Source: Muricea muricata (Eukaryota > Cnidaria > Anthozoa > Malacalcyonacea > Plexauridae). From it: 64,000 bases of DNA. Made by a program: the position numbers and the translations under genes. The notes beneath the pieces were generated by a model that saw only the letters and a program-made list of their open reading frames with translations, was not told the DNA's origin and ran no database searches. Every line of letters begins with the position of its first letter. Within the stretch, counting starts at the first letter, position 1. Below are positions 12,506-63,830 of the stretch, piece by piece. The stretch covers positions 1,989,001-2,053,000 of the forward strand of contig OY979723.1 in the NCBI GenBank assembly GCA_963855995.1, written 5' to 3'.

Positions 12506-12704
12506 TCTCAAGTTTTATAAAAGAAAAGGATGTTTGCAATACACATGTTATAAAAGAAGCTTTTTCATTGGTTGTGCGTGCTCAATTGTGTGCTCAATAA
12601 CACGATTGAGCACCGCTAAAAAGCGCGGGATTGTTTCCCCGTTATTTTTGCGTACATTGTATATTATAAAAGCATTTTTCATGAGCTGATGTGCTCAGCT
12701 GAGT

Positions 12705-16200: not shown

Positions 16201-19200
16201 TGTCTGCATTAGAAGATGTCTGTATTAGAGAGATGTCTGTATTAGAGAAATGTCTGTATTAGAGAAATGTCTGTATTAGAGAAATGTCTGTATTAGAGAG
16301 ATGTCTGTATTAGAGAAATATCTGTATTAGAAAGATGTGTTTATTAGAGAGATGTGTGTATTAGAGAGATGTCTGTATTGAAGAGGTGTTTGTTTTGGAG
16401 AGGTGGAACATGTTGTAGAAGGATGTCTACATTATAGAGATGACGTCTGTGTCGAAGAGAGGTCTGTCTTAGAGAGATGTCTGTACTAGAAAAGCATATA
16501 AGTCAGATATCTGTATTAGAGAGCTGTTCGTAGAAATGCCGACAGAAAGGTGTCGTGTTAGAAATACATTGCTAATAAAGAGATATAACTACGTCGCCTA
16601 TTGATCAACAATAGACTCTCTAACTGAACACCTCGCCCTCAAAAATATGACCAAAAACGTTAATGCATATTTCAGGCCCTCACCTCACGGCCAAAAGTAC
16701 TGTTTTTTTCGACAGCTTTTTTTATAGCTTCCGTTAAAGTCGACACCCACTTTTCCTTTTGTTCCACAGAAGTAGCTTGAAAATCAGTAACCTTACTCTT
16801 GCTACAAACTCGAAAGACTAGTTCTCGATTTTCCGTTTCCTCGTCTGGTTCCTCAAGATGCGTGGATAAAAGTTCCACAGTTTGTTTTACTTTGTACTTG
16901 CCAGTTGCTGCGACTTTCGTGCAGTAGAACACGGAATCGTTGAACTAAATGTGTGACAACAAAGCAGGCAAATCAGGACGAGCTGGGTTGGATGTGAGTT
17001 GAGGGATCACTTAGATAACAGGACGTAATGAGTTGCAAGCTTTTCAAATCCCCAAACGGGATTTCATGCATCAACATAGCCATGGCAACACGAGTTGAGA
17101 AAGGAAAGTGTGCTCTACGAGACGTTTTGGTGTTTATGTCAAGGTAAAAACAATACAAATGTTGGTGCGCGTTGAAAAGCGAAAGTTTGTATGCGAGTTT
17201 TCTCATGTTTTGTGAACTTGTCAAACGAGAACGAGACTTGTACGAGAGTTGATAAGATTTGTCAAGCAAGCGTTTTTAAGAGAGTTTTGTCAATTATCAT
17301 GTCCTGGTCAAACAAGAACAAGGCAGAGTTGCATAGTAAGAGGTACAGAACAATCGCATTAACTCTCATATATCGACAGTAAACATAATAAGGATAAAAA
17401 TATATAATAGTAAAGGATGATACAAAAAAATCTTTTTCTCTTCACTTACCAAAACAAGAATTCTGGTCATAATTTGCGCATTCCTTGCCGATATCTTGAT
17501 CAATTCACCTTCCATTATAAATTCCTGGAAAACAAAAGATAACATAAAGGTAAATGGCCGGAAAACAACAGTTTGCGAGGTGTTTCAAATTAGAAGAATG
17601 CTAACTTTATCAAAGTTAGGTGTGATTGTTGATCTATCGTCTACCTTGACATAAACTAATGATACATAGATGTGCAACTCGGGGTACTTCTTGACTTAGG
17701 TGGTTGGCTAAAGTACGCCTTAGGTAGACGGCTTCTGGCAAGTACCATAGACAATCCAGAAGACAGGGACTGGAAACGCCAGCTAAAATTTTGATGACAT
17801 CCGTGATGTGCCTGTCACGTAGCAATTACTTAGTTACCACGGTAACAAGTTTTAAAACTAGCATTAAAAACAAAGACAAATGCACGCAGTTTATTGAAAT
17901 TATACCTTTAAAAAACGCATTTTCAGAATTTTGGGACACTACTCGTTGAGTGGCTGTACTAGCAAAGGTAGGTATATTCCAATTTTCATGTATTTATGTT
18001 TTATAGTGATGTTAAATGTACAAGTTGGATGGTGGTGTCGCGAAAATCGCGCACACAGCAACAATTTCAAAACATACTGCCAAAACTAACCCTGTAACAT
18101 AAAACTTAACAAGCTTTCTCTTTGGAGAGGAAGTTATTTCAAATGATAAGATTGTGATCTATCGAATAGGCTATTTTTTATGTGAATTTGGTATTTTATT
18201 CGCCAAAAAATGTTCACTGGATTGGACGGGCAAAATTGAGAATGTAACAAGCCTGTAATGTTTGTTGTCAATGCTTGCTGACAAAACTGACCCTGTAACA
18301 TAAAACTAAACCTGCTTTGTTGGTAGGAATAAAGATTTTTCAAATCACAAGATTGTAAGCTATCGAATAGGCTAATTTTTTTAGTCAGTTAGGTCTTTTA
18401 TGCGGCCAAAACTGTTCATTGAATGTGAGGGGTCAAATTACAAATGCAACAAGACGGCAATCAATTGTAGTATTTATACTTTGGACGTTTGTTGACAAAA
18501 CTAACCCTGCTAGCGAAAACTAAAATAATTTTATGCTTTGTGTTTAAAATATTCGTAATCACAATACTGTAAGCTATCGAATAGGCTAATTTTTTTTGTC
18601 AGTTAGGTCTTTTATTCGATGAGCGCCACGCGAATAAAAACACGCAGCCTTCTCTGAGCTACTTATGGTTACATTTGTAATTTGACCCCTCGCATTCAAT
18701 GAACAGTTTTGGCCGAATAAAAGACCAAACTGACTTAAAAATTAGCCTATTCGATAGCTTACAGTATTGTGATTACGAATATTTTAAACACAAAGTATAA
18801 AATTATTTTAGTTTTCGCTAGCAGGGTTAGTTTTGTCAACAAACTTCCAAAGTATAAATACTACAATTGATTGCCGTCTTGTTACATTTGTAATTTGACC
18901 CCTCACATTCAATGAACAGTTTTGGCCGCATAAAAGACCTATCTGACTAAAAAAATTAGCCTATTCGATAGCTTACAATCTTGTGATTTGAAAAATCTTT
19001 ATTCCTACCAACAAAGCAGGTTTAGTTTTATGTTACAGGGTCAGTTTTGTCAGCAAGCATTGACAACAAACATTACAGGCTTGTTACATTCTCAATTTTG
19101 CCCGTCCAATCCAGTGAACATTTTTTGGCGAATAAAATACCAAATTCACATAAAAAATAGCCTATTCGATAGATCACAATCTTATCATTTGAAATAACTT

Positions 19201-22200: not shown

Positions 22201-25200
22201 ACTGTATAGCCGACGCACTGTAAACAATCAAGACAATTTTATATTCACCATATACCTTTAGAAACGGTGCCAAATAATTGAAAATATCCCCAACTCTGGG
22301 CGTCGTATCCCTGTGAACAGATTAAAAACGTTTTCAGTAAACATTTAAAAAATTGAACGAATACGAATCACATGAAAATCACGAGTCCAAATTTCACACT
22401 TTCACCATTAAGAAAATCGGCCGAAATTTACTCTAATTTGGCAATTAGATTATTTCAGAACCATCCTCACAGATGTGAAAAACTAGATTCAGATTAATCT
22501 GACATTGCAGAGAACAACGAAAAATTCGCTGTCTCGAGCGGGATTCGAACTCACATCTTCGGTCTAGAAACCCGAAGATGCGAGTTCGAATCCCGCTCGA
22601 GACAACGAATTTTTCGTTGTTTTCTGCAATGTCAGATTAATATGAATCTAGTTTGGCAATTAGAATTGACCAATGTATGCCTAGGTAATAAAATTTTGAG
22701 CTCCAGTAGCCACGCTTATTGTTCCTCATTACAAGAGTGTTATTAATGGAATTTTTTATTTTCAGTATTTTCTTATGGTGGAAATATGCGATATCGACCA
22801 ACAAGTTTAATTTAATTCTAATCTTCTAGATTTTTTATAAAGTGTTATAAAAACGATGTGTTTACAAGCTAAAAGCCTGGTCTTACAAACTGTGGAAAAA
22901 TTATTTGTGCTACCAGATGAATAGGGCGCTCTAGAACACCCAAAATTTGATCAACTTCAAACTAACCAGTTCTTCATTCGCTCTTCGAGTTTCGGCAAGA
23001 GAAAATCTCGATGGAATTTGTTAATGGTTGTGATATTTGAAAATATTTCTAGTAAAGCCTCGGCTGGTATGATGCCTTTAGCTCTGCATTCGTTGTCCAG
23101 CCTGAAGTAGAATACCTAAATGCAAGGAGAAAGCAATCGAGATTGATCAAGTGTTCCAACGCGCAAGTTGCAACGACCTGTGGATCAACGCCAGTCTGGC
23201 GCTGTTTCGGTGGCTACGACCTCTTTTTCTTGACAAGTCTGTTGTACCTCACCTAAACTTATTAAGCAACGTGAGTCGTCATACCTCGTCTAAAAGCTTG
23301 AGCGTTTTAACGTATGTTATTTCAGTCGTCAGAATTTCTTTGGCAATATTAAACAATTTCTTCTTGCGAGGATCCAGGAAACCCTACAAAAAAATGAAAA
23401 CGTATCAAAGTCTAAACTGTTGGCACTCAATGCAGGTTGGTAGTGGTCTTGAAATACGCGTCCTTTTGGGGTAAGTTCTGACTAGCGTTTAAAACTTCAA
23501 ATTGTTGGTTCACAGTGTAGGTAGTGGTCTTGAAATACACATGCTTTGTGGTAGATTCTCACTAGTTTAAACTTCAAGCTGTTGGTTCTCAGTGTAGGTA
23601 GTGATCTTGAAATACACGTCCTTTGTGGGAGATTCTCACTAGTTTAAACTTTAAACTGTTGGTTTTCAGTGTAGCTAGTGATTTTAATAAAATACACGTC
23701 CTTTGTGGTAGATTCTCACCAGTCTAACCTTCAAACTGTTTGTTCCCCGTGCAGGTACGTAGTTAATAAAATACGCAACCTTTGTGGTAGATTCTCACTA
23801 GTCTAAAATGTAATAATTTTGCACATTACCAAGTCAGGAATATCATCTAATTCATCAAAAATTATTCTGCTTTGTCGTTTATCTGGCAATGCTTCATCGC
23901 GGTCATCGCTGTCGCTTTCAAACTCATCCGTATCCCATCCATCTTCGTCTTCCTCGTCTTCTTCGTCGCCTTCGATCTTTTCTGCATCAACATCTTCTGC
24001 TTTCTCGGCAACGATAACGCCCTCTTCGTTCACATCTGCCACCGGTTCCGGATCCTCAGCAACATCGTCCGTTTTATCCTCGTGGCCTGCAAAGGAAACC
24101 CGACGTACAAAATGTCTGTTTAGGCAGCGAAAGCTCAAACGTGAAGACTTGCGTCCGCTCATCGCAAAACCCGATCTCGCCAGCTCGGTGCAAGTTGCTT
24201 ATATCCTATTCAAATACAACATTGTGATAATACTCGTGCGAGATAATGTTTGCCGCAAAAGTTTTTTTTCCTAGTTTGCCCACACTGGGAAACATGACAA
24301 AACATTTATCATTGTTACAACATTGAGCAGAGGCCGAGGAAGAGCGGCAAGTGGAAGAGGCAAATATTCAAATATTCCATCATTAATTTCATTTGAAATC
24401 GATTGTTTAAGTTTTTTCAGTCTGTCAACACGAATATTTGAGTTTAGTATTTTTACACAAGTGAACATAAGAAATCCGACGTTGTGATTGGTCCAATATG
24501 ACGTGACATTGCTTTATATCATCACTACAGGTGAATATAACAGCAAAAACAAGTTTACAAAATGGCGATTAGCCACCGTTTTGTTGACAAATTACGAACA
24601 AAGAAATAAATAAAATTAAAATAACTTGTGTAACTCGACTTCGTTTCGGTGAATATTCCCAGATAATCACCGAGCCTGAGGCGAATAATTGTTAAATACG
24701 CTCAATCAACGAAATTTCGCAGCCCCTGTCCGTAAGTGACATTGCTTTTTACACGTTCACAAGCTTGAACAAGCCGTTCACAGAATAGCTTGTAACAAGC
24801 TTGACGAGACTCTCAGACTTGCTACAAGATTGTTCCAACAGGACTGCAGGTACAGTCATGACATAAGAGTGCTGGAACAGCTGTTTACGTGTACGTGACT
24901 ATCTTGATATTAATATACGCCGTGCTTTTAGGCAGTTTTTTTCCACAGCGATATTAACCCAGCAATAGCCGAACTCATTTTGAGCCCGGGAAGCTCGTCT
25001 TGGACGGGAAACGTGTCGGTAACTAAAACCCCGTACGTTCAATGTAAATTTAGGGACGGACAAATATCAACTAATGGACTTTCTTTCCCATTATACGCCA
25101 TTTTGTTTCCTTCCCTTATCTAGGTCCAGACTTTGATTGTGTTGGTGATGAGAAATTCGCTTATACACCAGTCTGAATGCGAGTTTAAGACGAGTTTCTC

Positions 25201-29233: not shown

Positions 29234-32200
29234 TTAACCTGGATGTACTGTTAGATTCTTTGGCGACACGACCGACTGCAGTTTGGTGCGAATTTTTGAG
29301 GCGGCCTGGTGGGCAAAACCAGATGCGATCATTTGTTCTGTGATGTTTTGCGACTCTTCCTTGTCCGAGCGGAACAGGTTGACATACATTGTTTTGTTTA
29401 TGCTGCAAAATATCAAACAAAATTTTGATCACAACGCTCTTTCTGGATGTTATTCATTATTAATTATTAACCATTAATAATAATCATTAATCATACATGC
29501 ATACATCTGTAAACCCCATATAAATTAATGCAAATCAGTTACAAACACTTATCAAATCCAACGACCTATTTGGTCGTTTTCTAACTGATTTACATATCGA
29601 ACTCATCTTTATGCATTTATTTTACAAGTTGTTTTCAATACTGGCGTGCGTGTTGTGCTGGATACATATTTGTATATCCAATACAACACGACCGCTCGAT
29701 CGTGTAAACATTACATACAGAGATACAAAGTGGTTGCCATACTTACATAAGTAAGTCGTTAACGACACATTTACTTATATTAGTGAATTGTACAAATTAT
29801 GGAACGATAACTCCAGGTTAGGTTAAAGCCAGTGAACTCTATAAATATTGGAGCGATAACTCCAGGTTTGGCCGAAGCCAAGACTGACAATAAAACTTCT
29901 CTAGCAGATATTTTCAAATCAAATCAAATTCAATATCTCGAAAAGTAAGGCAGTTACAAAAATTATATCAAAGAAGTTGTACTGTGACGTTAACTGATCT
30001 TTTTAATGCAATAAAAACACTGTGGGACAAAATGTCGTTTCACACAAACACTTTGATCAATTATGATTACAGTCAAAGAACAACAACGACGAGAACTTAC
30101 ATCGACAAAACTTGACAAACCAACACTTTGTCGTCAACCAACGTCTTGAAGTGTTCTCTGAAAAAATTCAAAATTTGCGGATTTTTTTTTCCATTAGAAA
30201 AGCTTTGTCCAGGGCAAGTTTTGAAGGGCCGCAAATCTTGTGCTGCAAATCTCGAACGTTTAGCGTATCGTTAAAAAGAGAGCTTCGCAATTTCGAAAGT
30301 TGAAGAACGAAACAAAAGGAAACTGATTTGTAATTCGCTTGTTTTGTCGTCAACTTCGTATTTCGTTAAAAAGAAACTGAGTTCATGATGTACCTACGTT
30401 TAAACTCTAGAGAGAGTTTTCGTACTCGTAAAAGTAACCGGATCCTTGTTTTTCAAACATTACGGCTCGACACAGAGATTCCAATGCATAACAAGCATAA
30501 TTCTCATGCCGCTGGGCGGTTTGGGCGAATAAATGCCTGGGTATTCGTTTTGGTGTTATTTTGTGAAGTTTTGACCGTGTTTTGCTCTTGCAATGAGATT
30601 CAATTTATGCAACCGATTTATGAAACTCATTCATCACAATATCGTGATGCTACGGACCACGGTAATAAACGTCCTTAAATTAACTCAAATTTTTCGCTAA
30701 ATTTAAGTCGTTTGTGAAGCAATATAATAAACTGGAAATTGTTTACTACCGGTGAACAAAAGACCTCAAAGTGTGCGTAAAAAACGCGACCAGCGCCTTG
30801 TTTTTCAACAACTTTTCGGCGTTTTATACGCCGGTAATAAACCGCTTTCTCGTTTCTTATGTATTACGTAACACGACCGCCAGCGTTGTAAATAGCACAT
30901 CGAATCGGACAAGAAAACAATCTTGTGTAAACGAGGTGTTTACTCTGACAGTTTCAATGGATTATTGGCTAACCTTGAATCCTCGGTCCAGTCTTCTGAT
31001 TTCGGTGCGATATCGGACAAGTAACATTCTACGGATCGGAACGGCAGATGAAGAAACTGAGGCATGATGGGATAGATATTGGTTCTGTGAATCCACTCTA
31101 CTATTCCGTAATCAACAAACAGGACCTAAAACATTACGAAAACATCTCTAAATGTCAGCCATTTGTTTGGCACCGAACTGACCACATATAATCATAATTA
31201 ATTATACATTGTAATTCTACACAGCCACATACTTGATACAAGTTTTGGATTTTACCGGAATGATGCAAGTTTGTCATCTATCTTGTTGCATCAACCCCGC
31301 TGGCTTCATCAAGTTGCATCAAGTCTGTGAAACTCATACTTAATGGAAAAGTACTTAATATACTTGCTGCAAGTCACTGCTTGTGGATAGAAAGTTTTGA
31401 CAATTAAAAAAGTCACCTTGTATTTCTGATCTTCCTGTTTACAAATTTTCCCTCGGTACCACATATTATCCACAACAGACCTCGTTACCACTAGTTCACC
31501 CTCAGTTGGTGGAATCAACGAACGCTTACGATTGAACATCTTCGAATAAAAATCCCTATGGAAATTTTCAAACAGGTGTAAATAACTCGCAATCTTTGTC
31601 GCAAATCATTTCAGCATCTATACAACCAACAAGTTTTGCATTCTGATAAATTTAGCCGTTACAAATACAGTCAGTTTAGTTTAGGTTTACTCCAGTATAA
31701 ATAAAGTTAGTTTGGTTTAGGTGTCCTCCAATAGTAACATTATTTTAATAAGAGGTAGTCCTCACTGGACCTCTAGAAAGAACAGTTTAGAACTGATAGA
31801 GCTATCCACTATAAATAAAGTTACTTTAGTTTACGTTTCCTCCTGTAGCAATACTGGGTCAATAAGAGATGATCCTCACTGGACCTCTAGGAAAAACAGT
31901 TTAGAAGTGATATTATGATATTGTGATGCTACTCCGAGTGTAAGCCACACTGGGCAGGCTGAAAAATTTGCCTGGCCACAGCGGGATTCGAACCAGCGAC
32001 CTTTGGAATACTAGTGATAGAGCTATCCAGTCTAAAAGTAAGGTTATATATACATACTCCATCTCTTTCATAAGATTATTAAAATCCTTTAGATTTTCTT
32101 CACCAGATGATTCTTTTCCACTTCGATCTAAAAAAATTCCGGATTGGCATCTCACTCCAGTTACACGCATGCAGCTCGCTGGAATTTCTGACGTTCTAAT

Positions 32201-35200
32201 GGTAATAGCCGATCTGCCACCAACAGCCTCCCCCCCCCCCCCCCCCACCAAAACCGACTTCAAAACTTCTCTTGGTTGTAAGAAGCTAAAGAGGAAACGC
32301 TAAGTGTTTGCCTTCCTTTTTACTGCCAAGAAATTTCGCCAATGATGTTGTTAAAAATGTTCATTTGTGATTTCCAGGCTGTTTGGTCCCCGAAAAAGGT
32401 TTAAAAGTCGATAGTTCTATAGACATTGTTGTTTTTGATCAAAATATGTAAATACAAAGTCCTGAAATAAATTTAAAGCGAAGTTACAGGGTTCCAAAGT
32501 AAAGCGTATCAGGTCGTATGAAAGTGTTTCTTTCGCTCGCTCTATCATAGCTTATATGCTCGTTGTCTTATGCTTGTGTTTATGTCACACACTTCACGTT
32601 GTTCTGCCTTTAGTTCTAGCTTGTACTTGTGAATCCAGTGACTAGGCTTAAAGTCTGGGTCATTACTTACTTTTAATAACTTGACTTGTAAGATTTTCAA
32701 CACCATAAGGCAACTGAACCCAAAAATGTGCTGGATTGTATATGGCCGTGATCCTCGCCAAAACAAAAGCACCAATGTCTGGCAATTTGATTGGATTAGC
32801 TGCGGATCCGAATATGAATACCTGGTTTGACACATCTATACAACAAAAAGATGAACAGATGCTGTTTGGCAAGGCATGTCTTACCAACGGAGCATTACAT
32901 ACAAGAAAAGATATTCTGGTGGAAAATACAGTACCCTGGTCGACGTGTTTATCAGAACATTTGCTTCCACGAAAGCAGCCATATTTAGTGCGATAGAACC
33001 GGCAAATCTTGCCACGATCTTCCTCTGAAACAACACAAGAAAAAGTATGCTTTATAAAAAAACTAACTTTATCTATACTGGATAACTCTATCAGTTCAAA
33101 ACTGTTCATTCTAGAGGTCCGACAAGGATCATCTCTTATTGATGCAGTGTTACTTTAGGAGGAAACCTAAACTGAACTAACTTTATTTATACTGGATGGC
33201 AATATCAGTTCTAAACTGCCCTTCCTAGAGATCCAGTGAGAATAATCTCTTATTGATCCAGTGTTATTGGAGGAGGAAACCCAAACTAAACTGAACTCAT
33301 ACTGGATAGCTCTATCAGTTGTAAATAGTTCTCTTGAAAGCTCAAGTATTACACATTCCTTTTTATCCAAGGATAACCTATACTGTTCCTACACATCTTA
33401 CCATATCCTGTGATGGCGACATCCAAGTTATCAGTTTGAACGCTGTAAGCATTTCGAAATGATTGAAAGTCATGTGACATTGGGTCCCATGGGTCCAGTA
33501 GTTGCGAGGTTGGGCTGATCGGGCTGGATGGGGGACTGGGATTTTGTGAAAGCGGTGGTGTCGATGTGACATCTGTTAGACAAAGAAGCATAACTTGAGA
33601 GCTTGCTCATCATAGGAACTCACCTAACGGAGAAACTCACGAGAGACGAGCAAGTCAGTTGACATCTTGCAACAGTCTTGTTATCAACAAGCTGATATCA
33701 GGATGCGCTCGCATGGCTTGCGACAGCTTGTTGACGACAACTGCTGTTGCAAGTTGTCGCACGGCATTTCCGCTATCTTAGTTTAACCCAAACACGGGGC
33801 TTTAACCTGGAGTACCCTTCCAGAGTACTTTCCAGTACGCCGATTGAAAATCAATCCGAATTCGTGTCAACACTTCTTGCCTCCCACGTTTTTGTCTTAC
33901 CTTGCGAGGTTTTAGCTATATCGAGAAGTTCGCTTTCATGGACTTTGACAACAACGTAATCCTCCTCTTTTGTGTCTCTGCTTGCGACCGCTAAACCCTC
34001 CATTTCTGAACCAATTTCTCCATTCGATTGTACTTGAAAAGTGGCCGGAATATCGTCCGCTTGTGTTTCCGAATAGACTTGTTCATTCCAATTTCCTGCA
34101 GCATCAATGTACGAGGCAGAAAATTCACCCGCCTCACTGTAAACCTCGGTATCAAAGTTTTCTGTGGTAGTATTTACAACATCTACAAATTAAAGACTGC
34201 AGTCTGCTTAAAGGAAATTAAAATGAAGAAGTTCAAATCCCTGAAAAATGCAAATATTTAAATCTTTGGGAAAAATATGTGAATTTGTTTTTAAGTTTGT
34301 TGTACGTTTGCATGGTGAATATCAAATTGAATATAATTTTGTGGCAACGCCAGGTAATTTTATCATCGCAAAATATCAACGCAAAGCTTTCGATCCGTAA
34401 GCTCGGATCTTCATCAGTGCTAATAATAATTATTATTATAATTAATAATATAATCATCATTATTATAATTATAAGTTCTAATAATTACTCGCTATTATAA
34501 TTATAATCATTATTATAACATTTATTATTAGCACTGGTGAAGAATTTTACCTAGAATTTTACTTAGAAATTTTCCGATGTAAACTGTATTCATAAAAAAG
34601 TGCATTTTATACATGTTTTACTAAAGAAGTAATATTACAACAATCATTCGCCTCAGGCTCAGTGATTATGGTACATATTTACCTCGACTTCGTCTCAGTG
34701 AATATTTACCATTAGTATTTTTACACAAGTGAATATAAGAAATCCGACGTTGTGATTGGTCCAATATGACGTGACATTCCTTTATATTCACCTACAGGTG
34801 AATGTAACAGTAGAAACAAGTTTACAAAATGGCGACTAGCCGCCGTTTGGTACAAATTACGGACAAAGAAATAAACAAAATTAAAATAACTTCTGTAAAA
34901 ATACTAAAACAATTATTCACCTCAGGCTCGGTGATTTTCGGGGAATATTCACCTCGACTTCGTCTCGGTGAATATTCCCCGATAATCGCCTCGCCTTCGG
35001 CGAATAATTGTTATATAATCACTTGATCGCCTTGGGCGTATAATTGTTAAATATTGACATTGCTACTGTTGTTTAAAGTGTATAACTCCTGAAATATATT
35101 CGCAGTAAAGTTTCAGGGTTCCAAAGTAAAGCGTATCAGGCGGTATCACGGATGTAGCGTTAGCACCATTAGCGCCTTAGAACAGTTGAAAAATGCCAAT

Positions 35201-38200: not shown

Positions 38201-41200
38201 TTACACTCGAGTTTCTGATAGTCAAGATCGCTGGCCGAGCGGGCATGGGGTCGAATGTAAAGCTCCAAAGGAACAGAATTTAGACCAGCCTCATTCTCGT
38301 ACAGAACTGCTTCCAATGTCTCCCCCGACACACGACGTTTGAACCAATCATTGACTGGAAGAAATAATGAATGCTAGAATGACAACTTTCGGGAAGAAAT
38401 TGAAGCTAGAGCCGTATTTCAATTTGAGGTTATCAAAAAGTTTAATAATTAGCTTGAAAACTTCACGACTTTACTCAAGAACATTCAGGAGAAATTTGCC
38501 GTGTTTTACAAAATCTCGGTTTTCTTCGCATTTTTAAGCATTTCTTTCTGGCTTAAAGATTTGGAGTTCGTATACCAAGAGTTTTTGCACCGACATTTAA
38601 TGTTTTTACCTTGATTTAACAAGTAATGCTACGGTTTGTGAACTTATAACTTGACACAGTCTTTTGAAAAAATAGCTTGGAAAAATAATGACACAAACGA
38701 GAACAATGTGAGCTACCTTGGCTTCACCCAAACACGGACTTTTACCTGGAGTTATCTTTCCACATTGGTGCATACAAACCTTTATCTATTTTGACATCTT
38801 CTCTCAATTCCAGACCTCTTAACTGGACACGCAATGCTTGGCACGGCAAGCTCGCGAATTTCCCGTCTAATTCGCGTAACCTTGACAACGGTAAGGTCTC
38901 CGCGTTCCCTTCATCGACGTACAACACACCGACGCTGTTATCTTTACGAGAAACCGCTGTCACTAACGCCCGATACCAGACATCGTCCACTGTGTAACGA
39001 CCACAACATACGTGACCCACTTCAGGAAGGTCTTCGAGACCACCTTTATCGCCAGATTTCGCAAGCTTTGAGAAATGATAACTAAACAAATAGCATTCAA
39101 TAATCCAGTGTTTACTACAGGAGGAAATTTAAACTAACTTTTACATTGGATAGCTGCTAGAGGTTCAGCAAGAATCATCTCTTATTGATCCAGTGTTACT
39201 ACAGGAGGAAACCTAAATTAAACCAACTTTATTTATTCTGGATAACTCTATTAGTTCTAAACTGTTCTTCCTGGACGTCCAGTAAGGATCATCTCTTATT
39301 GATCCAGTGTTACCACAGGAGGAAACCTAAACTAAACTAACTTTATTTATACTGGATAGCTCTGTCAGTTCTAAACCGTTTATCCTAGATATCCAGGAAG
39401 GATCATCTCTTATTGATCCAGTGTTCCTACAGGAGGAACCTGAACTAAACTAACTTTATTTATACTGGATAACTTTATCAGCTCTAAACTGTTCTTTCTG
39501 GAGGTCCAGTAAGGATCATCTCTTGTTGATCCAGTGTTACTACAGGAGGAAACCTAAACTAAACTAATTTTATTATATACTGGAAATCTCTAACAGTTCT
39601 AAACTGATCTTCCGGGAGGTCGAGGGAGGATCATCTCTTATTGATCCAGTGTTACTACAGGAGGAAACCTAAACTAAACAAACTTTATTTACACTAGATA
39701 GCTCATCAGTTCTAAACTGTTCTTCCTAGAGGTCCAGTAAGGATCATCTCTTATTGATCCAGTGTTACTACAGGAGAAAACCTCAACTGAACTAACTTCA
39801 GTTTACTTATACTGGATGGCTCAAACCTTCGCACATACCACATTTTCTCCATAAGTAAATCTAGGTCGTCATTTGTTTTTTGGATCCAAAAATCTTTCGG
39901 ACTGACGATCTCTTTCACCGTGACTTTAACGCATTTGTCTTCTGGAATCTCAAACGCAGGAATCTGTGGACCTGAGCGGAAAAGAATGATCAAAGCTTGA
40001 TAAAAAAATTAACAACGGATAATACTATTATTTCGAAGGTTCCCCAACATAAGCCAGTAAGAAAACATATTGCCATAAGATCAACGTAAATACATAGAAC
40101 TATCGACTCACACCTTTTTCAACGGGTTCTTGGCATTCATTACCCTGTTTCAAAACTTTGCTCTCACAAGGCGTGTCTGTCTGCATCTTGGATTGACCCG
40201 AAATCACAGATGTACTTGAGGTTTTCAGGCATTCTTTGGAAACCGTTTTATTCTGTTTCTGTGGGAATACGACTTCGCCGACGGTTGGCTCTCTCTTTCC
40301 AAAGTCATCCACCACTAACTTAGATTCTCCCAGATCATTTGGTGTTACTTGAGACTTTCCTGTGTCATATTCTTCTTGCTCGCGTGTTTCACTTATTTCG
40401 CACGCTATTTTCAGCTCTTCGCTTTTGTCCGCTTTTATTTCGACATCACTCGACGTGATTTCGGCTTTTTCGTTTCCAGCGAGTGTTATTTTAGCTTCGC
40501 CATCTTCGTTTGCCGTTTCAAAATTTTCTACCGTTTCTTGAGACTTATATTCGCAAAATCCGATTCTTTGCAGACGAACTGTGGTTGGCGAACCGCATTC
40601 CGATCCACTGTCCACCTGAGTTGAGATATTTTTACCGTTCAGTCCTACTAACTCTCCGTTTTCTTCGCCGAAACTACCACGCCGCAAACTGGTAGTAACC
40701 TCTCGCTCCTCCGAAGGTGTACTTAAAGGCAAAGTTGCCATAAATAGTTCGTTGACATAAGTAGTTGAATCTCGGATCTGTTGTGCCGTAATTATATTTT
40801 TGTTATCTTCCTCTTTAGCTCTAGTTTCATTCGCTTTAACAATCTCTGACTTACTAGAATCGTTTAAAAGTTGTAGACTCGACGGCTTTTTAACAAAAGA
40901 CTCACCAATGTCTACTAAATCGAAAACTAAAGAAGCGTCTTCATGGTCTGTTGTTTTTAGAATGGGCGTCTCATTTCCTTTTTCGAGCGAATTGCCAGAG
41001 CATTCTGAAGTGTTAAAAGATCTTTTGCCCGCTTCTTGCTCAATCTGCTGGTCGTTCGGAACGAAACTTTGCCCGCTTTTTAAGTCGTTTAAACAGTAAT
41101 CTCCTTCAGGAATTGTTTCTTTAGGATACGGATTAGAACTTTCCGTCTCAAAATCAATCAAGTCTTTTGCAAAATCGATTGAAGACACTATACTCGGTCT

Positions 41201-45406: not shown

Positions 45407-48400
45407 ATGGCGACGGAAGAAGAAGCGTACATAATGTCTGACGAACAGTTATTAGATAAAACACCAATTAGTATTGCAATGCATCCCAATGCTGAGATTA
45501 TGTCAACTGCCGAAGCAATGGAACAAGACGAATGTAAGAGTCATTTCTGTCATTAATCCAGTGTTACTACAAAAGGAAACTCTAAAAAGTGAAATTTTTT
45601 TTATTTTATCTGTATCAACTATAAACAGTTCTTCCTAGAGGTCCAGTAAGGATCATCTATTGTTGATCTAGTGTTACTACTGAAGGAAACGTTAGCTAAA
45701 CTAACTTTATTTATACTGGATTGCTCTATCAGTTCTAAACTGTTCTTCCTAGAGGTCCAGTAAGGATCATCTCTTGTTGATCCAGTGTTGCTACAGGAGG
45801 AAACCTAAACTAAACTAACTTTATTTATACTGGATTGCTCTATCAGTTCTAAACTGTTCTTCCTAGAGGTCCAGTAAGAATCATCTCTTATTGATCCAGT
45901 GTTATTACAGGAGGAAACCTGAACTAAACCTTTACTTACACATGAGCTCTATCAGTTCTAAGCATCATCTCTTTTTGATTTAGTATAGGACAGCTGTATC
46001 TAATTAAATGTCTTAATGAGTCCCTTAATTTGTTTTTTACATTTTGAATTTCTCATAAGCTGCAACCTATATTGGAACTACAACCTTGGATTTACTCAGA
46101 CAATTACACATACAGATAACGAAGGGGAGGGCAACCAAATATTCTTAAGTAAACTAATTTTTTGTACTGTACATTTTTGCCACCAACAGCAGGCGATGAG
46201 GAGGAGCTAGATTTGCATGTGTGTGGAAAATGTAAGGCAGAATTCACAAATATACAACATTATGTCGAGCATAAGAGAGGCGCTTGCCCAAAACAAACTT
46301 CTTTGAAGAGCCAAGAATCACCAAGCAAGGTGAGTGATATTTAGTCTTGAATTCAAATCCATTGAATTCCGCCTTGATTCCATTGTACACAAGGTTTTTT
46401 AAGGGTATTTTTAAGACCGTAAAATGCCACCAAAAATTCAATCATCAATGGAGTTTTGAAACTCGATCTCCTCACCAAAGTGCCAAGTTAAAACGAAGTT
46501 GTTTGAGTTAATTTTGTCGCGGGTAGAAATTATTTTTCGACTAGAAAGAATTACGAAAAAATGGTCCGAAACTATTTCACAACACAAGAAAAACTACACA
46601 ATCATCATAGTGATAGTCATATTTCCTTCGAGAAGATTGAGGCTATCACATTCTAAAAATCTAAAGGTCGTACCTTCGATTCCCTCCTAGGCCGGGCATA
46701 ATTTTTCAGCTTGATGTGGTTATAAACTTAGAGTAACAGCACAAATATCGTTACATCAACTTGTGAATGTTTTCTGAATCTTACAGACGTAATTACAGAA
46801 TTGCTCTTGCTATCTTAGGGAAGAAAAAGGTCCGAAACTCCGGGCAAGCAAGTATTGTCCGGTACAGATAACGTCACAGCAATTCTGGAACCTCAGGTTC
46901 AAAGTTTCTGTGAGACTGTTATCGAGGAAGGTGGAATTGTCGTCGAGGCACAAGATTCCGAAGCACACCAAGAGATTATTAAGGCCGCCAGAGCTTCAGA
47001 GAGTCAAAGCTTGCCTGCAGAAAGTACGTTTAGAAAGCTGATAATAAAATGAAACAATCTAATTTGAATTGAATTTAACGTAGATTGACTTTCTATTCCC
47101 TGAAAGATCTTTTAAAACCAACTTTTTTGCAGTTTTTCATTTCCTTTCCTCCGACCTGAGGTATTATAGCTTATTTGAACTTTTTATTGCAAACAATTTA
47201 TGATTTTTCAAAAAATTCATATTACAGCAGCTGTTGGGTACTTGAAACAACCCAAAATTAGTTACATGGGTGTAAGGCATTAATAGTTACGCACGTTTAT
47301 TTTGGCATGGTCTTCAGCTTGAATGACCAAATATAAATAAGGTTAAACGGGAGCTCATTATGCATCGTAACGTCGCATTGCTTGTAATGAAAAGTTCAAA
47401 CAAACTAAAATATCTCACGTTAGAAGGAAGAAAATGGAAAACTGCTGAAGAAGTTGATACACAGTTTTAAAAGGTCTTTTTTAGTGAATAAAAAAATTCG
47501 CGTCATATATCAAGAGGTTACCCTGAAATAAATGTATTAATGTACTTTGTATAAGGTTATTTGTGCACCAATTAACGATTTTACAATGCTTTAAAGGGAG
47601 TATTTCCCCTAATAACATCACTGAGAGGCCGAAAACAACCCCCTGATCCATGCTATCAAAGTATTTAAAAACTTTTTTCAGGTTCAAAACCTGTTCTGAT
47701 CATATTACTTATAAATTTAGCAGATGGATGTCATTTGTATCTCTTAAATTCTGCACTGGCAATTTCGGATGTACCTAACTTCGTCCAAGTTCTGTTCCCT
47801 TACTCATAGTCTCTTACTCAAGGCTATGTCTTAATTGTGAAAAAGCCTTTAAAAATAAGTGTAGTCTTAATTTAAACGACGCCATTTTCTTGAGAACCTA
47901 TCAACACACTTAATACTTCATGAAAAACTTACAAACAAGCCACGAAACTCACCCACCTCATTAAGCTTTCATTAATGTCGCCTTACATTTAAAGCTGTCT
48001 TCGTTTTAGCCGTTTTGACAATTAAGACATGGCCTCAATTTTAGCAAGAGATCATGTTGTTCTATTTCTCTAAATTTGCCTCCTCGTTTTACTTTGTAAC
48101 TTTCAGCAGCATGTAAAGACAAGGAAGAAACAACCGCTGGCCAACTAGAACCAGGCGAAATCGACCCAACCGCAAGCACATCGAGTTCGGGCGACGGTAG
48201 TGCCTTTAAATGCAACGTGTGCAACAAGGACTTCGACCGCCCCGAGAGTTTGGTCGTGCATCAGTTTATGCACAAGAAGTTCCACCAGTGTTGCGATTGC
48301 AAAAGATCGTTTGTGTCAGCGGAGAACCTCAACAAGCACAAGAAAGATTTCAAGCATGTTTTCAAGTGTAAAATATGCCAAGAGGAATTCGCAAGCAAAG

Positions 48401-51400
48401 ATAACTGCAAGTCGCACGCCGCGTCGCACACACGACAACACGAATGCCAGGATTGCAAGAAGAAGTTCTTTACGGATAAAGCTTTGGAGCGGCACCGAGA
48501 AAGGGTCTGAAATGTTATAGATAACACGAGATTTAGGAAACCTCTCATACAAACTCTAGCTTGTCAACTTTCATGCAACTCTTGTTCTCGTTTGACCAGG
48601 ACATGAGAGTTGAGAAAACTCTTATACAAACTCTCGCTTGTCAATTTTCATGCGACTCTTGTTGTCGTTTGACTAGGACATGAGAGTTGAGAAAACTCGC
48701 GTACAAACTCTAGCAACTCAATTATTATGAAATTTCGTCGGCTCTCATACAACTCTTCTTCTCGTTTAACTAGGACAAGAGAGTTAAAAAAGCTATTATA
48801 AAAACTCTCTACTAACTGTCGCTTCTCAACTCTCATGCAACTTTTGCTCTCATTTGACCAGGACATGAGAGTTGAGAAAACTCTCATTCATACAAACTCT
48901 CGCTTCTCAACTCTCATGCAACTCTTGTTCTCGTTTGATAAGGACATGAAAGTCGAGAAAACTCTCATACAAACTCTCGCTTCTCAACTCTGATGCAACT
49001 CTTGTTCTCGCTTGACCAGGGCATGAGAGTTGAGGAAACTCTCACACAAACTCTCGCTTCTCAGCTCTCATGCAACTCTTTTTCGTCTGACCACGTAGCA
49101 TTATAGCCCGTTTCTGAAATCATATATTTATACCTGCTTTTTAGGTAATGCATAACCTGCCATGCGATAAATGCGACAAAATCTGTCGGGATAAGCATGC
49201 GTTGACCAAACATCAGGAGTCTCATCTCAGAGTTAAAAGTCACGTGTGTGATTGGGAAGGCTGTGAACGGGGATTTCGTAGCGCTTCTGAGCTTCTCAAG
49301 CATAGGTAATAATAGAACGTCTGCTGTCTATCGTGCCCATACTTTATTTCAATCTACTTTGGTTAGCTAGGGAAAATCTAAGTTTAGGCTAATGAGAATC
49401 GACTACAAAGGACGTGTATTTCAAGATCGCTACTTACACTGCGAACCAACAGTTTCAAGTTTAGACTAATGAGAATCTACCACAAAGAACGTGTATTTCA
49501 AGATTACTACCCACACTGAGAACCAACAGCTTGAAGTTTAGACTAGTGAGAATCTACCACAAAGAACGTGTATTTCAAGACCACTACCTACACTGAGAAC
49601 CAACAGTTTGAAGTTTAGACTAGTGAGAATCTCAGTGTCACAAAGGACGTGTATTTCAAGATTACTACCTACACTGAGAACCAACAGCTTGAAGTTTAGA
49701 CTAGTGAGAATCTACCACAAAGGACGTGTATTTCAAGATTACTACCTACACTAAGAACCAACAGTTTGAAGTTTAGACTAGTAAAAATTTACCACAAAGG
49801 ACGTGCATTTCAAGATTACTACCTGTGTACACTGAGAACCAACAGTTTAATACAATATCTTGAACACTAACTAAGCTTCTCTTACCCTCCCATAGGAAAT
49901 GTGTACATCTGGGCATCAAAGAGCACAAATGTGCTGAGTGCGGAAGAGAGTTTGCAAGAAAAGACAAACTGAACCGACACATATTGATCCACTCGCCAAA
50001 CCGGCCAACCTTTCCTTGTCCGTTTAAAACATTCACCGGCTGCCAGAAAACCTTCTACCGCAAGGACAAGCTACAACGCCATATCTTCGCCCATTCCAAA
50101 GAGAAACCTTACAAGTGCGAGACGTGTCAGAAGGTGTTTGCGAGAAAGGTAGTGTGTCATTAACCAGCTAAACATGCTTATCAAACCTGTGTGCCGTGAA
50201 GAGACTAATGTTCGTATCTAAACGACAAAAATGATAGAGTGATGCTAGAAATAACCGCGGGGACCACTGAGTATTTTCATAAAATACACAACGGTAACTC
50301 CGAATAAAGGCAACATTATGATTCAACGGACTTTATTTAGACATCATCGGGAATCGAGTCGAAACGCTGAATCATAATGTTGTCTTTCTTCAGAGTTACC
50401 GTTGTTGTGTATTTGATGCTGGAAATATTATTGTTAAAATGCCTTGATTGATTAAATTTGTCGTTGGAAAAAGTATACTTCACACAACTTTTAAGATCAT
50501 AGACTTTCGTCGGCTTTACTCTATGTGTGATCAGTATCATACGATGCTATTTTACTTCACAGGACAACCTCACAGAGCACATGCGCATTCATACGGGAGA
50601 GTTCAAACACCGATGTCCCGTGTGCAACAAAGGGATGGGCGGCCCGAAAAAGCTCTTGCTGCACGTGCGACAGAAACACTCGGGCGTCAACGAAGTCATG
50701 CCCGACAAGCCGACGATGGTTTCCGAGAGCGTGCTATTAGCAACCAGCGTTGCCGCTACCGTGGTCACGTCGGCACCGCCCACGACGACGAGTACCGAAA
50801 GCGCCGACGCTACCGCTGCATCATGGGTACAGGAAAATATCACAGGGCAGGAGTCCGCTCAGAATACTGGGATCGAGAAAGCCGCCGCTAGTCCCGCAAG
50901 TGCTCTTGGGATGTCTGAGCAGTATCAATCTGAACAGTACGTTATATCTCAGTAGTACTTCCAGTATATTTTTCACTCCGTTTCTTTCACTAGAATGAAT
51001 ACATTTTCAAACAGCACTTTTACTTTCGTCCAATGAAAACGATATATTCTCATTACATGAAGTGCTAACCATTTGTCCAGAGACTAGGTTTGTGGTGGTT
51101 TTTGTCAAATTATGTCGACAAAGTCGGAAGCTTTTTGAAATAATTCGGAATGACAACGACCTCGTGTGGTCGTAGCCTTCAAAGCAGTAGTCATCGCGAC
51201 TTGTTTTCTCGTGTAATAACCATCGATATCTCATATACACTAGATAGCGCATCTGTATATCAAAAATTGAAGCCAAAAATCTCAGCGGTATCCCCTCATA
51301 ACAATAGGAGGCGGCCATATTGGTCGTTCCCTCTCGTCAAAAAAAAATGCTACAGAATACACTATACTTTTCTGCATTTGTGTATTAAATACTTTTTAGC

Positions 51401-55834: not shown

Positions 55835-56215
55835 TATTAATCTGAAACTGCAGATAACAACGAAAAATTCGTTGTCTCGAGCAGGATTCGAACTCGCATC
55901 TTCGGGTTGCTAGACCGCTGCTCTACCAATTGAGCTATCGAGTCAACTGGGATTGGTAGCGAGCCTTATCAAATTTAAGAACACGAAATATTTTTGTGAC
56001 GACTTAACGCTTGTCTTTGAGGACGCCAGCCCGCCGTTCCCTTTTTATCCTATTTTTATCCCTATTTATCTCTAAGCTTACCCAAGCTTGCCTGAAAAAC
56101 CTTAGCCTCTGCGCAGGAGAGTGGGACGCGAGTTCGAATCCCGCTCGAGACAACGAATTTTTTGTTGCTCTCTGCAGTGTCAGATTAATATGAATCTAGT
56201 TCTCCATATCTCTGA
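55835..56215. mobile_element. tRNA-like foldback element, larger relative of 22480-22655
   Basis: The left end ATATTAATCTGAAACTGCAG...AACGAAAAATTCGTTGTCTC and right end GAGACAACGAATTTTTTGTT...CAGTGTCAGATTAATATGAA are inverted copies. The left half, read minus, carries a nearly full tRNA-like head (GATAGCTCAATTGGTAGAGC, then GAGTTCGAATCCTGCTCGAG). The anticodon stem pairs poorly, so it is a SINE-type head rather than a working tRNA. Confidence 0.75.
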
Positions 56216-58123: not shown

Positions 58124-61100
58124 TTACACGTTCATAAATATCGCAGAAATCACGGAGAAGGTGAGACTGGCAAAAAGAGCACCAAAGTAACCTCGTTTGG
58201 TCGAGCTGTTGCGAGAAGTTTTGGTCGCTCGTGTGAACGGTAAGCGTTTAACTGCATAGAAAGAAAAAAATTGGTTGGCTTTAATTCCGACGCATGATGC
58301 TTATAGTCTCGCACACGCAGCAATATATAAATATATACCTCGTTGCTTTATATATATATAATTTAAAAAAATAGTATTTACTTGTCATTTAAGTGGTTTT
58401 TTATGAACTTTTTTATAAAGTACGATTTTTGGTTGATATTTGCTTTTCATTTCATTACTTTTGGTATACTTTAGCCAGGTAGAAAAGCTTAAAGGTATTC
58501 TTAAAGCTAAGTCGGGAATGTTAGAATGTGCTTGGCTCAGCCAGGCTATGGCTCAGGGCTGCTACCCAAGGTTTGGTACTTACCACTACCCGAATGAATG
58601 TTCTACTGAATCATATTTTAGTAGTACTTTGGTTTACGTTACATCTTCAGGTACTACCGTTCTTTTACATCAACTAAGCACAACGAAGAGCTCATTTACA
58701 AGAGGTGTGAAACATAAAAACGAAATATCGCAATGATACAATAAGAAAAACTTCACACACCCCCAGGCTCCCAATTCAATCCAAGAAGAAGGAGCTATAA
58801 GCACAAAATTTTTGTGGTGCACAACAAGTTTTGATAGTCAACTTGTAACAAATCTGACGACAACTTGCCACACTTTTCGTCAATAAACTGTCGCAAGCAA
58901 AACGAGAGCATCCTGGTATCGATTTGTCTACACACTTGCAGTTCAGTTGTAATATGCACATTTTAGCAACGTGCGTGTTCGAAATTATACGCCCAGTCAC
59001 TGTGCCATCGTAATCAAGTTTCTATGATCCGTTAATAGACCGTTTCTCTTACCTGTTGAGAACGTTTCACTTGAAAATTCAAACGAGGATGTTGAATTTC
59101 CTCTGCACATTTTCGGTGCACCTGGAACAAGAGCAAGACATCTTGGGGTACGTATGTGCGTCTGAGGGGTGACTGGGTAAACGTCGGTGAGGGGTGGGGG
59201 AGGGGAGGCCTGTTACAATATGTTGAAACAACTTGCAACAAGCCTCAGGAAAACACGTTCTGTAATCAACTCGCAACAAATGTGTTGACAACTTGGAACA
59301 GGCTTGTCGTCAACAAGCTTTGGAAAGTCATTCGAACGCATCATGATATCGGCTAGTTGTTGCAAGATGTTTAAGCAATTTGCAACCAAATCCTTCGCTC
59401 ACCTCTTACACGAAGTCTCAACGTTTTATTCCTGCCCATGCCCAGGCGAGTCTCGGGCACACAAGCATAAGTGCCGCTATTGTCCAATCCGACACGATGT
59501 ATCACAAACATCCCGGAGTTCTTTTGCTTTGTCATCAATTTGCCGTTCTTGTACAATGTATAGTTGAGAATACGCAGTGAAGAATTTCTCTCCATTTCAC
59601 ACAGTATTTTCATATCTTGACATTCCCAAATAACCCCATCCAAAGATCCGACATGATAGAATTCTCGTACCCTTGGTTTTCCTGAAGAAAAAGGATCACA
59701 ATATATCGTACTATGTACGCTCTGATCATAGTTAGAAACAATAAAAGATTATTCATCTCTGGGAAGAACTGCTTAGCACTGATGGAGTTATCCAGTATAA
59801 ATAAAGATGGTTTGGTTTAGGTTTCTTCCTATGGTAACATTGGACCAATGCGAGATGATCCTTACTGAACCTCTAGGAAAAACAGTTTGAACTGATGGAA
59901 TTATTCAGCATAAACAAAGTTAGTTTAGTTTAGGTTTCCTCCTGTAGTAACATTGGATTAATAAAAAGTGATCCTTACTGAATCCCTAGGAAAAATAGTT
60001 TAGAACTGACGTAGTTTTCCAGTGTAAACAAAATTAGTTCATTTTAGGTTTCCTTCTGTGGTACTGGATCAATAAAAGATGATCTTTACTGGACCTCTTG
60101 GAAGATCAGTTCCTGATACAGCTAACTAGAGCCCTGTAGAGAAATATTCTACTTAATACAAACATCAAGATGACTGAATGATGTCTTCATTCTGGGCAAA
60201 ACCTTCATTTCTCATTTAAGATTTGGATAAATTTAAAATTGACGAGAGCTGGGAAGAGTTGGCAGCTAGTCAAACACACAATTACAAGCAAGATTAATTT
60301 AAAATTCTTTCAGTATTAAGCAAAAACGTTATACTTACTGTAAACTTTTATTTGTAAACGCTGTGTGACTGTCTTCATATAGTTTGTAGCGTTGCAGTAA
60401 TACTGACCAGAATGACTCATTTTTATGTTTTTAATTTCCAATACATGGCTTGTCACGACAACTTTAACTTTTTCCCGATTAGAATAATACCAACTGACAT
60501 GAGGTGCTGGTAAACCGCGGACATTGCACACAATTTTAATCAAAGTTTCCTCCAAAACTTCGATGTCGGATAATGGCTGGATCGTTGGTGAAACTAAACA
60601 TGCGGGGTTAAAATTTGTTAGAAAATCGAGTCTTCTAGCATAAAATTAGTCCTATTTCAATGATCAGAATGTTCTGTAGTCATTTCACTGTTTTGAAAAT
60701 CTCACTGTTCTCCATGTCGTCCAGTCAAGATCCAGTGATCAGAATGTTCCATTGTTTCTTCATTGTTGTGGAAATCTCACTGTTCTTCATGTCACCCAGT
60801 CATGTCCCAGTAATCAGAATATTTTAAATACGTGCCTCAAAAAGGCAGACGATTGAAATAAGTTATTGTTACAACTTGAATGCCCTAGGCCTGTCACCCA
60901 CTATCGACATAAACATAAGGAACATAACAACTAACACTATTTCTCAATGGTGGTTAATTAATGCTTAAGAAGCGGCTTTTAATTCCCAACGGAAATTTTG
61001 TTTCAATTTTCTTTTTAAAAAATTACAAACGATACCTCCAACTTTTAACAGAACTTTATAATTCTCTTCTGATCCAGGATAATCGACTCGACATCTGTAA

Positions 61101-63106
61101 AATCCGCTATCTTTAACAGTCACTGCAGTCAAGACTACTGCAGACGAATTGTCAAGAGTAATCCGTCCTGTATAACTTTCGTTGGCGACTTTGAACTGCC
61201 CCTTACTGTAATAAGCTAACGTGGGCATGTTGTCTTCCAAGCGAGTGGAATTTTTGCTGTATTTGAGCTTCGCGAGCAGTGAGTTATGGTCAATAAAGCA
61301 GGCGAACTTGAAGTCAGAATTCACCTCAGCAGTTTTGACCTCAAAGTCAGACACCGAAATTGTCGAAACTACAACAAAACAAGAGAGAATTCCGTCCTAT
61401 AGTAACACCGGATCAATAAGAGATGATCCTTATTGGATCTCTAGGAAGAACAGTTTACAACTGGTAGAGCTATCTAGTATAAAGTTAGTTAAGTTTAGGT
61501 TTCTTTCTGTAGTAACACTGGATCAATATGATCCTTAATGGACCTCTAGGAAGAACAGTTTACAACTAATAGAGCCATCCGGTATAAACAAAGTTAGTTT
61601 AGTTTAGGTTTCCTCCTATAGTTACACTACTGGATCAATAAGAGATGATCCTTACTGGACCTCCTGGAAGAACAGTCTAGAACTGATGGGATATCCAGTA
61701 TAAATAAAGTTAGTTTAGTTCAGGTTTCCTCCTGTAGTAACATTGGATCAATAAGAAATTATCCTTACTGAATCTCTACGAAGAACAGTTTAAAACGGAT
61801 AGAACTCTCCAGTATAAAGTAATTTTAAAGCAGGAAAACTTCTACTTTACACGCCCAACGGTAATTAGTCCATCTCTTTCATAACAATCATTACTACAAC
61901 CTAATTAAAACAATTTGGGCGTAATTAGAAAAAAAATGCTTGAATGAACTCTCAAGAGTCATTAATTTTTAATAATGACTCATAAAAGCCAGTATATTTA
62001 TCATCGAAGCTAATGGATTATTTAGAATAACCTTTAGTGTGGCTGACCAAAATACGTGTATTGGCCCTATAAACACGCATGATACATCCGTTTGAATTGC
62101 GGCATTATGACAGATTTAAAAATAGACAAAGACTCCTTTTTAGCCCTGCAACACAACCACTTCATGCTTCCTACAAAATATGTCAATATGAGACGAGTTT
62201 ACTCTTCACAGGCCCTAGTTTAAAATCTGCAAAGTTATTCAATACAAATATAACTAACTTCGGATATTAACACAAAATTGCAAATATGAACAAAGACAGT
62301 TGACAGTAGCGACTTAACATTCTAAATTTCAAGGATTTTAAAACGACAATGTTACTTCAAACAGTCGTTGCTACGTAGAGGACAATGAAACACCTGCTGC
62401 TCGGAGCTGTACTACTGCCTAAAAAATGTATGCAAAATTTTTGACTTCACATGATGTCTGAGACGAAGGGGAGTGAGTTCAGGTGTTGCAAAGCTCACGG
62501 GAACACTTTAAACAAATTAGACTTCTCGCCCAAGCACGGGCGAAAATTAATGATCCCTAATACCGAAAGCTACAAAAAAGGACAAGAAAAACAGCAAACG
62601 CCTAAAGAACGTCTTATCTGATTACACGCATATAGTTATTACTGTGAAATTTTGAATAAAGCTCCCAATCCGGTCGCCACATAATTCCTTTTTGACTATT
62701 TGTAACAAATTATAAGATAAAAAAAGATGCAAATACGCAGACGAGCCAAGGACGTTTGCCGACGAGGGAAGTGTTAAAGGCAATACGTAAACGCTACAAC
62801 GACAAAGAACTCGATTCCATGTCGATCATTTCACTCAAAATCTAATTTGGTGCCTGGCTGAAATATCGACGAGCAACTTTGGTTCGAAACGGCAAAATTC
62901 TGCTTCATTTTTTTTTGGGCAGTGCATCCCTCGTATTTGGCAGCTGTTTAACGTAATTCAGTACCTTTATCACCAAAGATAAATATATTTACAAAACAAA
63001 CAAAACCGCATAACAATAGCAGAAGATACCTACCTGTCTGGTGATCGATGCAGGACACAACTAGTCCAACAATAAGAGAGATTTTCGCCGAAAAAACTCT
63101 TTCCAT
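58124..63106 (-). CDS. Three-Ig-domain secreted or GPI-anchored surface protein (6 exons, 378 aa)
   Basis: Probable cell-surface recognition or adhesion protein. Exons: 63034-63106, 61036-61368, 60339-60593, 59403-59681, 59053-59121, 58124-58251 (TAA). All introns are phase 1, as is typical for shuffled Ig domains. Residues 1-24 form a signal peptide (KISLIVGLVVSC). Ig1 is about 25-135 (FACFIDHN ... DSGFYRCRV); it lacks the usual C-strand Trp. Ig2 is about 136-220 (IVCNVRGLPAPHVSWYY ... SGQYYCNA), a clear I-set. Ig3 is about 221-313 (ILCEME ... SGTYACV). A short Ser/Thr-rich stalk follows. The end is RNSSTKRGYFGALFASLTFS plus a short hydrophobic tail to the stop, which looks like a GPI signal or a tail-less membrane anchor. 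The last exon is the least certain part, but its acceptor and phase fit. No orthologue is recognised. Confidence 0.82.
59755..60120 (-). repeat. ~114-bp tandem repeat family A, three units (Ig gene intron 3)
   Basis: Reverse units: TTTAGGTTTCCTCCTGTAGT, GATCCTTACTGAACCTCTAG and CAGTTTGAACTGATGGAATT. They lie between exons 60339-60593 and 59403-59681. Confidence 0.85.
61385..61815 (-). repeat. ~114-bp tandem repeat family A, about four units (Ig gene intron 1)
   Basis: Reverse units: AATAAGAGATGATCCTTACT, GGACCTCTAGGAAGAACAGT and AAAGTTAGTTTAGTTCAGGT. The array starts within about 20 bp of the acceptor of exon 61036-61368. Confidence 0.9.
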
Positions 63107-63344: not shown

Positions 63345-63830
63345 AAAAAAACGATTTAGAGAAGAATGACTGAATGAAGAATGATTGACATACGATTGAT
63401 TGACAGAAGAACGATTGAAAGACAAATGATTGAGAAAAAAATTATTGAGAGAAGAATGATTGAGAGACAAATGATTGAGAGAAAACTGAATGATTGAAAG
63501 AAGAATTGTTGAGAGAAGAATGACTGATTGAAGAATGATTGGGAGCTCGACAAGAATGATTGAGGGAATGTTTGCGAGAACAATGATTGAGAGAAGAATG
63601 ACTGATTGAACATTGATTGAGGAAAGAATGTTTGAGAGAAGAATGATTGAAAGAAGAATGATTAAGAGAAGAATGATTAAGAGAAGAATGATTGAGAGAA
63701 GAATGATTGACAGAAGCACGATTGAGAGAAGCACGATTGAGAGAAACACGATCGAGAGCAGATTGATTGAGAGAAGAATAGTGAGAGAAGAATGAATGAT
63801 TGAAGAATGAGTGAGAAAGAAGATTGAATT
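63345..63830. repeat. 15-bp minisatellite
   Basis: Tandem GAAGAATGATTGAGA units (most regular at 63610-63760), upstream of the Ig gene. The long hydrophobic (LLSIILL) open frame on the minus strand and the RRMIE frame on the plus strand are by-products of the repeat. Confidence 0.92.

Follow-up and report, generated by a model that had tools for sequence, protein, structure and literature searches.

In a 64-kb stretch of the Muricea muricata genome (OY979723.1; hereafter the window, to which all array counts and statistics reported here are confined), one 114-bp unit forms arrays of about 2 to 6.4 head-to-tail copies at eight places in five genes, and six arrays of four further families (units 17, 75, 77A and 77B) are likewise intronic. 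We favor, with somewhat better than even confidence, the explanation that these are dispersed satellite-like arrays residing in pre-existing introns, which were joined there preformed or have been renewed from a common pool. The sample behind this explanation is small, being eight arrays in one 64-kb window.

Arrays and the introns that contain them

A profile of the 114-bp unit returned 31 included unit matches, all of them in eight clusters, the remainder of the 64 kb being devoid of such arrays; unit E-values went down to 1e-37, and chance is therefore excluded for these arrays. Tandem Repeats Finder recovered the same eight arrays together with arrays of other units, and three weaker profile matches (E 0.01-0.6) were located at 32010-32044, 31890-31913 and 45960-45986. 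The profile thus bears out the eight clusters of a unit of about 114 bp listed in the initial annotation, the coordinates of which were accurate to a few tens of bases (Table 1). Both orientations relative to transcription occur, as had been stated, with five arrays sense (A2, A3, A6, A7 and A8) and three antisense (A1, A4 and A5) to their gene, and the phases at which arrays start and end within the unit vary among arrays.

Table 1. Tandem arrays of the window and the introns in which they lie (fill, the array's share of the intron)
Array	Position	Strand	Orientation to gene	Place	Fill
A1, 114-bp	146..393	+	antisense	ARIH2-like intron 105-408	0.82
A2, 114-bp	15124..15434	-	sense	FYVE/PH gene intron 15003-15494	0.63
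17-bp	15943..16576			FYVE/PH gene intron 15891-16683	0.80
77B	17134..17334	-		FYVE/PH gene intron 16945-17449	0.40
77A	23414..23807	-		FYVE/PH gene intron 23384-23829	0.88
A3, 114-bp	31640..31913	-	sense	Between two Tudor gene exons, borders approximate	
A4, 114-bp	33058..33332	+	antisense	Tudor gene intron 33025-33401	0.73
A5, 114-bp, 6.4 copies	39097..39824	+	antisense	Tudor gene intron 39082-39838	0.96
A6, 114-bp	45534..45963	+	sense	Zinc-finger gene intron 45534-46189	0.66
77B	48539..49095	+		Zinc-finger gene intron 48505-49144	0.87
77A	49381..49848	+		Zinc-finger gene intron 49306-49895	0.79
A7, 114-bp	about 59735..60111	-	sense	Ig receptor intron 59682-60338, phase 1	0.57
75-bp	60658..60823			Ig receptor intron 60594-61035, phase 1	about 0.37
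A8, 114-bp	61388..61824	-	sense	Directly upstream of Ig exon with acceptor	

The window, with G+C of 0.34-0.44 along its length, contains a FYVE/PH gene (which we take to be FGD-like), a Tudor gene, a C2H2 zinc-finger gene (presumably ZNF341-like) and an Ig-domain gene, all identified by Pfam and PDB matches, as are a fucosyltransferase that forms a single open frame and an ARIH2-like ligase. The sole Rfam match at gathering scores is a tRNA gene at 55873-55944. A 21-bp repeat (12.4 copies, 51656-51915) lies in open frame in the last exon of the zinc-finger gene and encodes His/Gln-rich repeats, and a 15-bp minisatellite (31 copies) occupies 63345-63828, beyond recognised exons.

Splice sites were taken by eye from open frames, and the exon models are approximate; the reading frame was open across the junction in 12/12 joins. 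A Pfam scan covered 10 of these 12 joined exon pairs. Joining across A5 gave a Tudor score of 93.4 bits, vs. 70.5 for the downstream exon alone, with the profile covered from 2 to 121 of 121, while PH scores rose from 29.7 to 45.3 bits on joining across the 77B array of the FYVE/PH gene and from 19.4 to 28.3 bits across A2. The exons joined across A1 provided a gapless 70-residue match to ARIH2. The joins across A4, A6 and the 77A array of the FYVE/PH gene had no Pfam match and are based on open frame and splice signals, and a Pfam match is no proof of the joint for the zinc-finger and Ig joins, since these domains lie mostly within single exons. The donor of the 77B intron in the zinc-finger gene (GTCTGA) is weak. 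Both splice sites were read for A1, A2, A4, A5, A6 and A7; A8 is probably intronic, to judge from the adjoining acceptor-bearing Ig exon. The initial annotation had assigned all eight arrays to introns of four genes. The number of genes is five, and the intronic placement holds for the six arrays with both sites read and for A3, which lies between exons, with A8 placed provisionally by its neighboring exon.

In the 12 introns with both splice sites read (that is, with A3 and A8 left out), 4789 of 6659 bp are array DNA. The fill of single introns ranges from 0.37 to 0.96, so the earlier description of arrays that fill introns from end to end is true of the best cases only: it fits A5 (96%) and roughly A1 (82%), but not A2, A4, A6 and A7 (57-73%). 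In the case of A5, 14 and 15 bp separate the array from the splice sites. The residue, i.e., intron DNA other than array, is 29 to 304 bp across the 12 introns, and the mean nearest gap between array edge and splice site is 42 bp vs. 39 bp for uniform placement within the residue. Array edges are therefore no nearer to splice sites than uniform placement would bring them, and the notable point is the scarcity of other DNA, not attraction to splice sites. The median residue was 159 bp in 13 array introns (including that of A3, with its approximate borders) vs. 556 bp in the 27 introns that lack arrays (Mann-Whitney P = 8e-5), a comparison in which missed exons would make array-free introns look longer and in which residue does not equal original intron length if arrays replaced DNA. 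Further, 12 of the 14 arrays lie in small-residue introns, which represent 6.7% of the DNA that is neither coding nor array (binomial P 6e-13, with the 304-bp limit derived from the same data). The small residue of array introns is a strong pattern within this one window.

On minimal gene models, 13 of the 14 arrays, from five families, are intronic, and A8 is the 14th given an upstream exon; under the same proviso, the earlier statement that none is intergenic holds within this window. With A8 counted as intronic, random insertion into non-coding DNA would place all eight 114-bp arrays in introns with P = 0.0044, and random insertion points would do so for all 14 arrays with P = 0.0001, although arrays that share a gene do not count as independent. 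Tandem repeats of other kinds are present in coding and in apparently intergenic DNA of the window. The intron bias of the eight 114-bp arrays in one window is suggestive, not decisive, and the initially proposed targeting to, or retention in, transcribed DNA is no more than suggested.

Relationships among units and a proposed common source

Units of the 114-bp family are about as similar between arrays as within them: mean identity was 0.840 within (24 pairs) vs. 0.832 between arrays (186 pairs) for the 21 of 31 units with 95 bases or more, and 1357 of 5000 permutations were as high. A tree of the 24 units of 80 bases or more required 16 array-label changes, against a shuffled mean of 16.4, with 0/21 branches starred, and shared minor variants were not concentrated by array (25/230 pairs; 1146/2000 permutations as high). 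Neighboring units are therefore not recent duplicates of one another, which suggests that the 114-bp arrays come from a shared pool and were not grown in place. The lack of array-specific clustering also supports a common source, the part of the initially suggested spread by rolling-circle or conversion-like events on which these data bear.

Units at array ends have diverged further than internal ones (87.5% vs. 92.4% identity to the consensus; 14/10000 permutations), an effect that is weaker with long units alone (197/10000) and weaker still when the first unit of A6 is also removed (526/10000). Renewal of array interiors from the common pool is one reading that accounts for both the absent clustering and the diverged terminal units; a single burst of preformed arrays accounts for the absent clustering alone, not for the diverged terminal units.

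Under the favored explanation of satellite-like arrays in pre-existing introns, the source would be a larger homogeneous satellite array that yields short stretches of several units, most probably as circles or broken concatemers, which would be joined into introns. Homologous exchange with the source may refresh arrays already in place, and each copy would then decay independently. Replacement or growth would halt at the requirements of splicing, so that in the best case almost no other intron DNA would remain. The intron bias could mean that arrays insert into transcribed DNA or that they are better retained there, two routes between which the data do not separate. A bolder version, which we consider unlikely, is that a few satellites progressively occupy the introns of this genome. 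The pool, through homologous circle entry or conversion, would keep renewing arrays that overwrite DNA down to the splice signals, turning the introns of unrelated genes into nearly interchangeable satellite copies.

Array borders and alternative origins

Alternatively, the 114-bp unit might stem from a mobile element (a Helentron/HINE, a MITE or a tRNA-derived SINE) with decayed or short ends, as its central repeat or as a fragment that it carried to each intron, a possibility to which we assign a rather low probability. The borders of the arrays bear directly on it. Among the 16 sides of the eight arrays, compared in both orientations, no common flank was found except for 19 bp of upstream flank shared by A3 and A8 (score 33 vs. 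a maximum of 26 in 400 shuffles), a match that counts for the mobile-element origin; a carrier element with conserved flanks or ends was rejected, as array sides match at these 19 bp alone. No target-site duplication beyond chance was found at the eight 114-bp arrays (13 of the 14 arrays were tested, the 17-bp array being left out); at the 77A array of the FYVE/PH gene, an 8-bp repeat spans the two edges (6/300 shuffles as long) and consists of letters of the array's own unit. This lack of common flanks and duplications, together with the varying start and end phases, argues against a mobile carrier.

The stretch 32010-32044 beside A3 is SINE-like, has 32 aligned bp in common with the 114-bp unit (score 42 vs. 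a maximum of 26 in 500 shuffles) and contains GGTTCGAATCCC, which we take to be B-box-like. The alignment favors the mobile-element origin and hints at a possible tRNA-derived ancestry of the unit; against this, no tRNA match was obtained beside A3 with Rfam at E up to 5, and self-comparison of the window revealed no second copy of the stretch at E up to 1e-4. The many palindromic repeats of the window also count for a mobile element. Among these, near-perfect MITE-like palindromes of 200-500 bp are found at 9109-9352, 1726-1979, 5749-6006, 8467-8669, 12697-12926, 22480-22654 and 37235-37746. An inverted repeat in a FYVE/PH gene intron (17746-19596; arms of about 884 bp, 17746-18618 vs. 19596-18714, with 96% identity and internal repeats) looks like a young foldback element. 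In a search for relatives elsewhere, exact patterns had 0 matches in viral and prokaryote contigs, which says little, since these collections are viral and prokaryote DNA. Finally, oyster arrays of a similar kind are borne by Helentron-like elements, and these Cg_HINE arrays have 50-100 bp conserved flanks, to which their orientation is fixed (PMC7492417). The arrays described here resemble them as dispersed satellite-like arrays of several families, but no such conserved flanks were found around the 114-bp arrays.

Local growth, in which one unit would have been seeded per intron and then multiplied in place through slippage or unequal exchange, is in our judgment quite improbable. Expansion inside introns would account for high fill, and the 77A and 77B units, from two arrays each, group to some extent by array (permutations as high: 85/5000 and 134/5000, respectively), which fits some local growth. 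However, the 114-bp family has no array-specific similarity on the identity, minor-variant and tree measures, and local amplification is disfavored for this family while it stays open for 77A and 77B.

We judge it very improbable that the arrays entered exons and thereby produced new introns, in the manner of introners. It counts for such creation that the unit homology of A6 starts exactly at the donor GTAAG (position 45534, unit position 9) and that so little DNA is left beside the splice sites of A5. Either joining at a short match or splicing from a donor supplied by the unit itself would explain the start of A6, the first unit of which is the most diverged long unit (74% to the consensus). 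The T of GTAAG (unit position 10) is present in 15/15 sense vs. 5/10 antisense units (P = 0.0047 before correction for 112 columns); for the GT pair, the counts are 13/15 sense and 5/10 antisense units. The T is the top column but had been inspected before the test and is not significant after correction, so that selection on the donor-like motif was rejected. The arrays do not span their introns between the two splice sites with uniform ends; A6 reaches the splice site on the donor side alone. Against intron creation, three of the eight arrays are antisense, array ends are out of phase with each other and no duplication at the exon joints is evident by eye in 12/12 array introns. Further, the introns of A7 and of the 75-bp array are phase-1 introns between Ig domains, a position held to be ancient. 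A possible shared Tudor intron position of A3 and A5 was dropped as proof of age because the borders of A3 are approximate. Hence, the initial view that this is not simple intron creation by a unit carrying its own splice sites stands on the two orientations, the varied end phases, the lack of target-site duplication and the phase-1 intron of A7, with A6 as an oddity.

Retrozyme-like spread, in which a self-cleaving circular RNA would be copied back into DNA concatemers, would yield preformed arrays with star-like units, and metazoan RNA circles with ribozymes are reportedly on record, but we regard it as highly improbable because Rfam detected no ribozyme in the window at gathering scores, nor any in A5 or the arrays of the zinc-finger gene when E was allowed to reach 5 (so that units with a hammerhead were not found in these searches), and because of the weak consensus fold (-3.7 kcal/mol, covariation term -0.09).

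Comparison with known satellite systems

The TCAST satellite of Tribolium castaneum forms dispersed euchromatic arrays near or in genes, with array units unclustered on trees, and circles with homologous entry have been proposed for it; the 2018 paper gives intron enrichment over all families (P = 0.005), and the 2012 paper gives 29/68 in introns with no intron preference (PMC3411249, PMC5844308). The Muricea arrays are similar in being short satellite arrays in genes with 114-bp units unclustered by array. They differ in that TCAST consists mostly of single repeats, with arrays up to tetramers, whereas the Muricea arrays are multi-unit and occupy most of the intron. A further difference is that no heterochromatic parent satellite is known for the Muricea arrays. 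The 1.688 and Rsp-like satellites of Drosophila also form euchromatic arrays, some of them intronic, and a new satellite was inserted into existing arrays; the Drosophila satellites are X-enriched, and the part of the paper drawn upon does not describe intron filling (PMC7919458). Similar to introners (PMC9860276), near-identical sequence makes up whole introns of unrelated genes here, and the donor of A6 lies inside the unit; in contrast to them, the 114-bp arrays have both orientations, variable ends and tandem units, and no target-site duplication was seen. In Daphnia pulex, tandem-repeat density is highest in introns, which is termed rare in animals, but the units are short, those above 8 bp being much rarer in introns than elsewhere (PMC3152781), as opposed to the long units found in the introns here. 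None of the open-access literature matches listed described cnidarian arrays of long units that fill introns.

As in dispersed euchromatic satellites, a single unit recurs here in short tandem arrays at many separate gene-rich places (eight in 64 kb, in or beside five genes), and units of the 114-bp family are unclustered by array, with 77A and 77B partly clustering. We therefore view the arrays as a variant of dispersed euchromatic satellites, the unusual part being the share of the intron that they occupy. If the pattern fails genome-wide, the unit would be an ordinary dispersed repeat. If it holds genome-wide, it would provide a directly testable case of satellites that prefer, or persist in, introns, and unit phylogeny would distinguish pool delivery from growth in place. 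The pattern would also be relevant to differences in intron length and to the share of an intron that can be dispensed with, A5 being the extreme.
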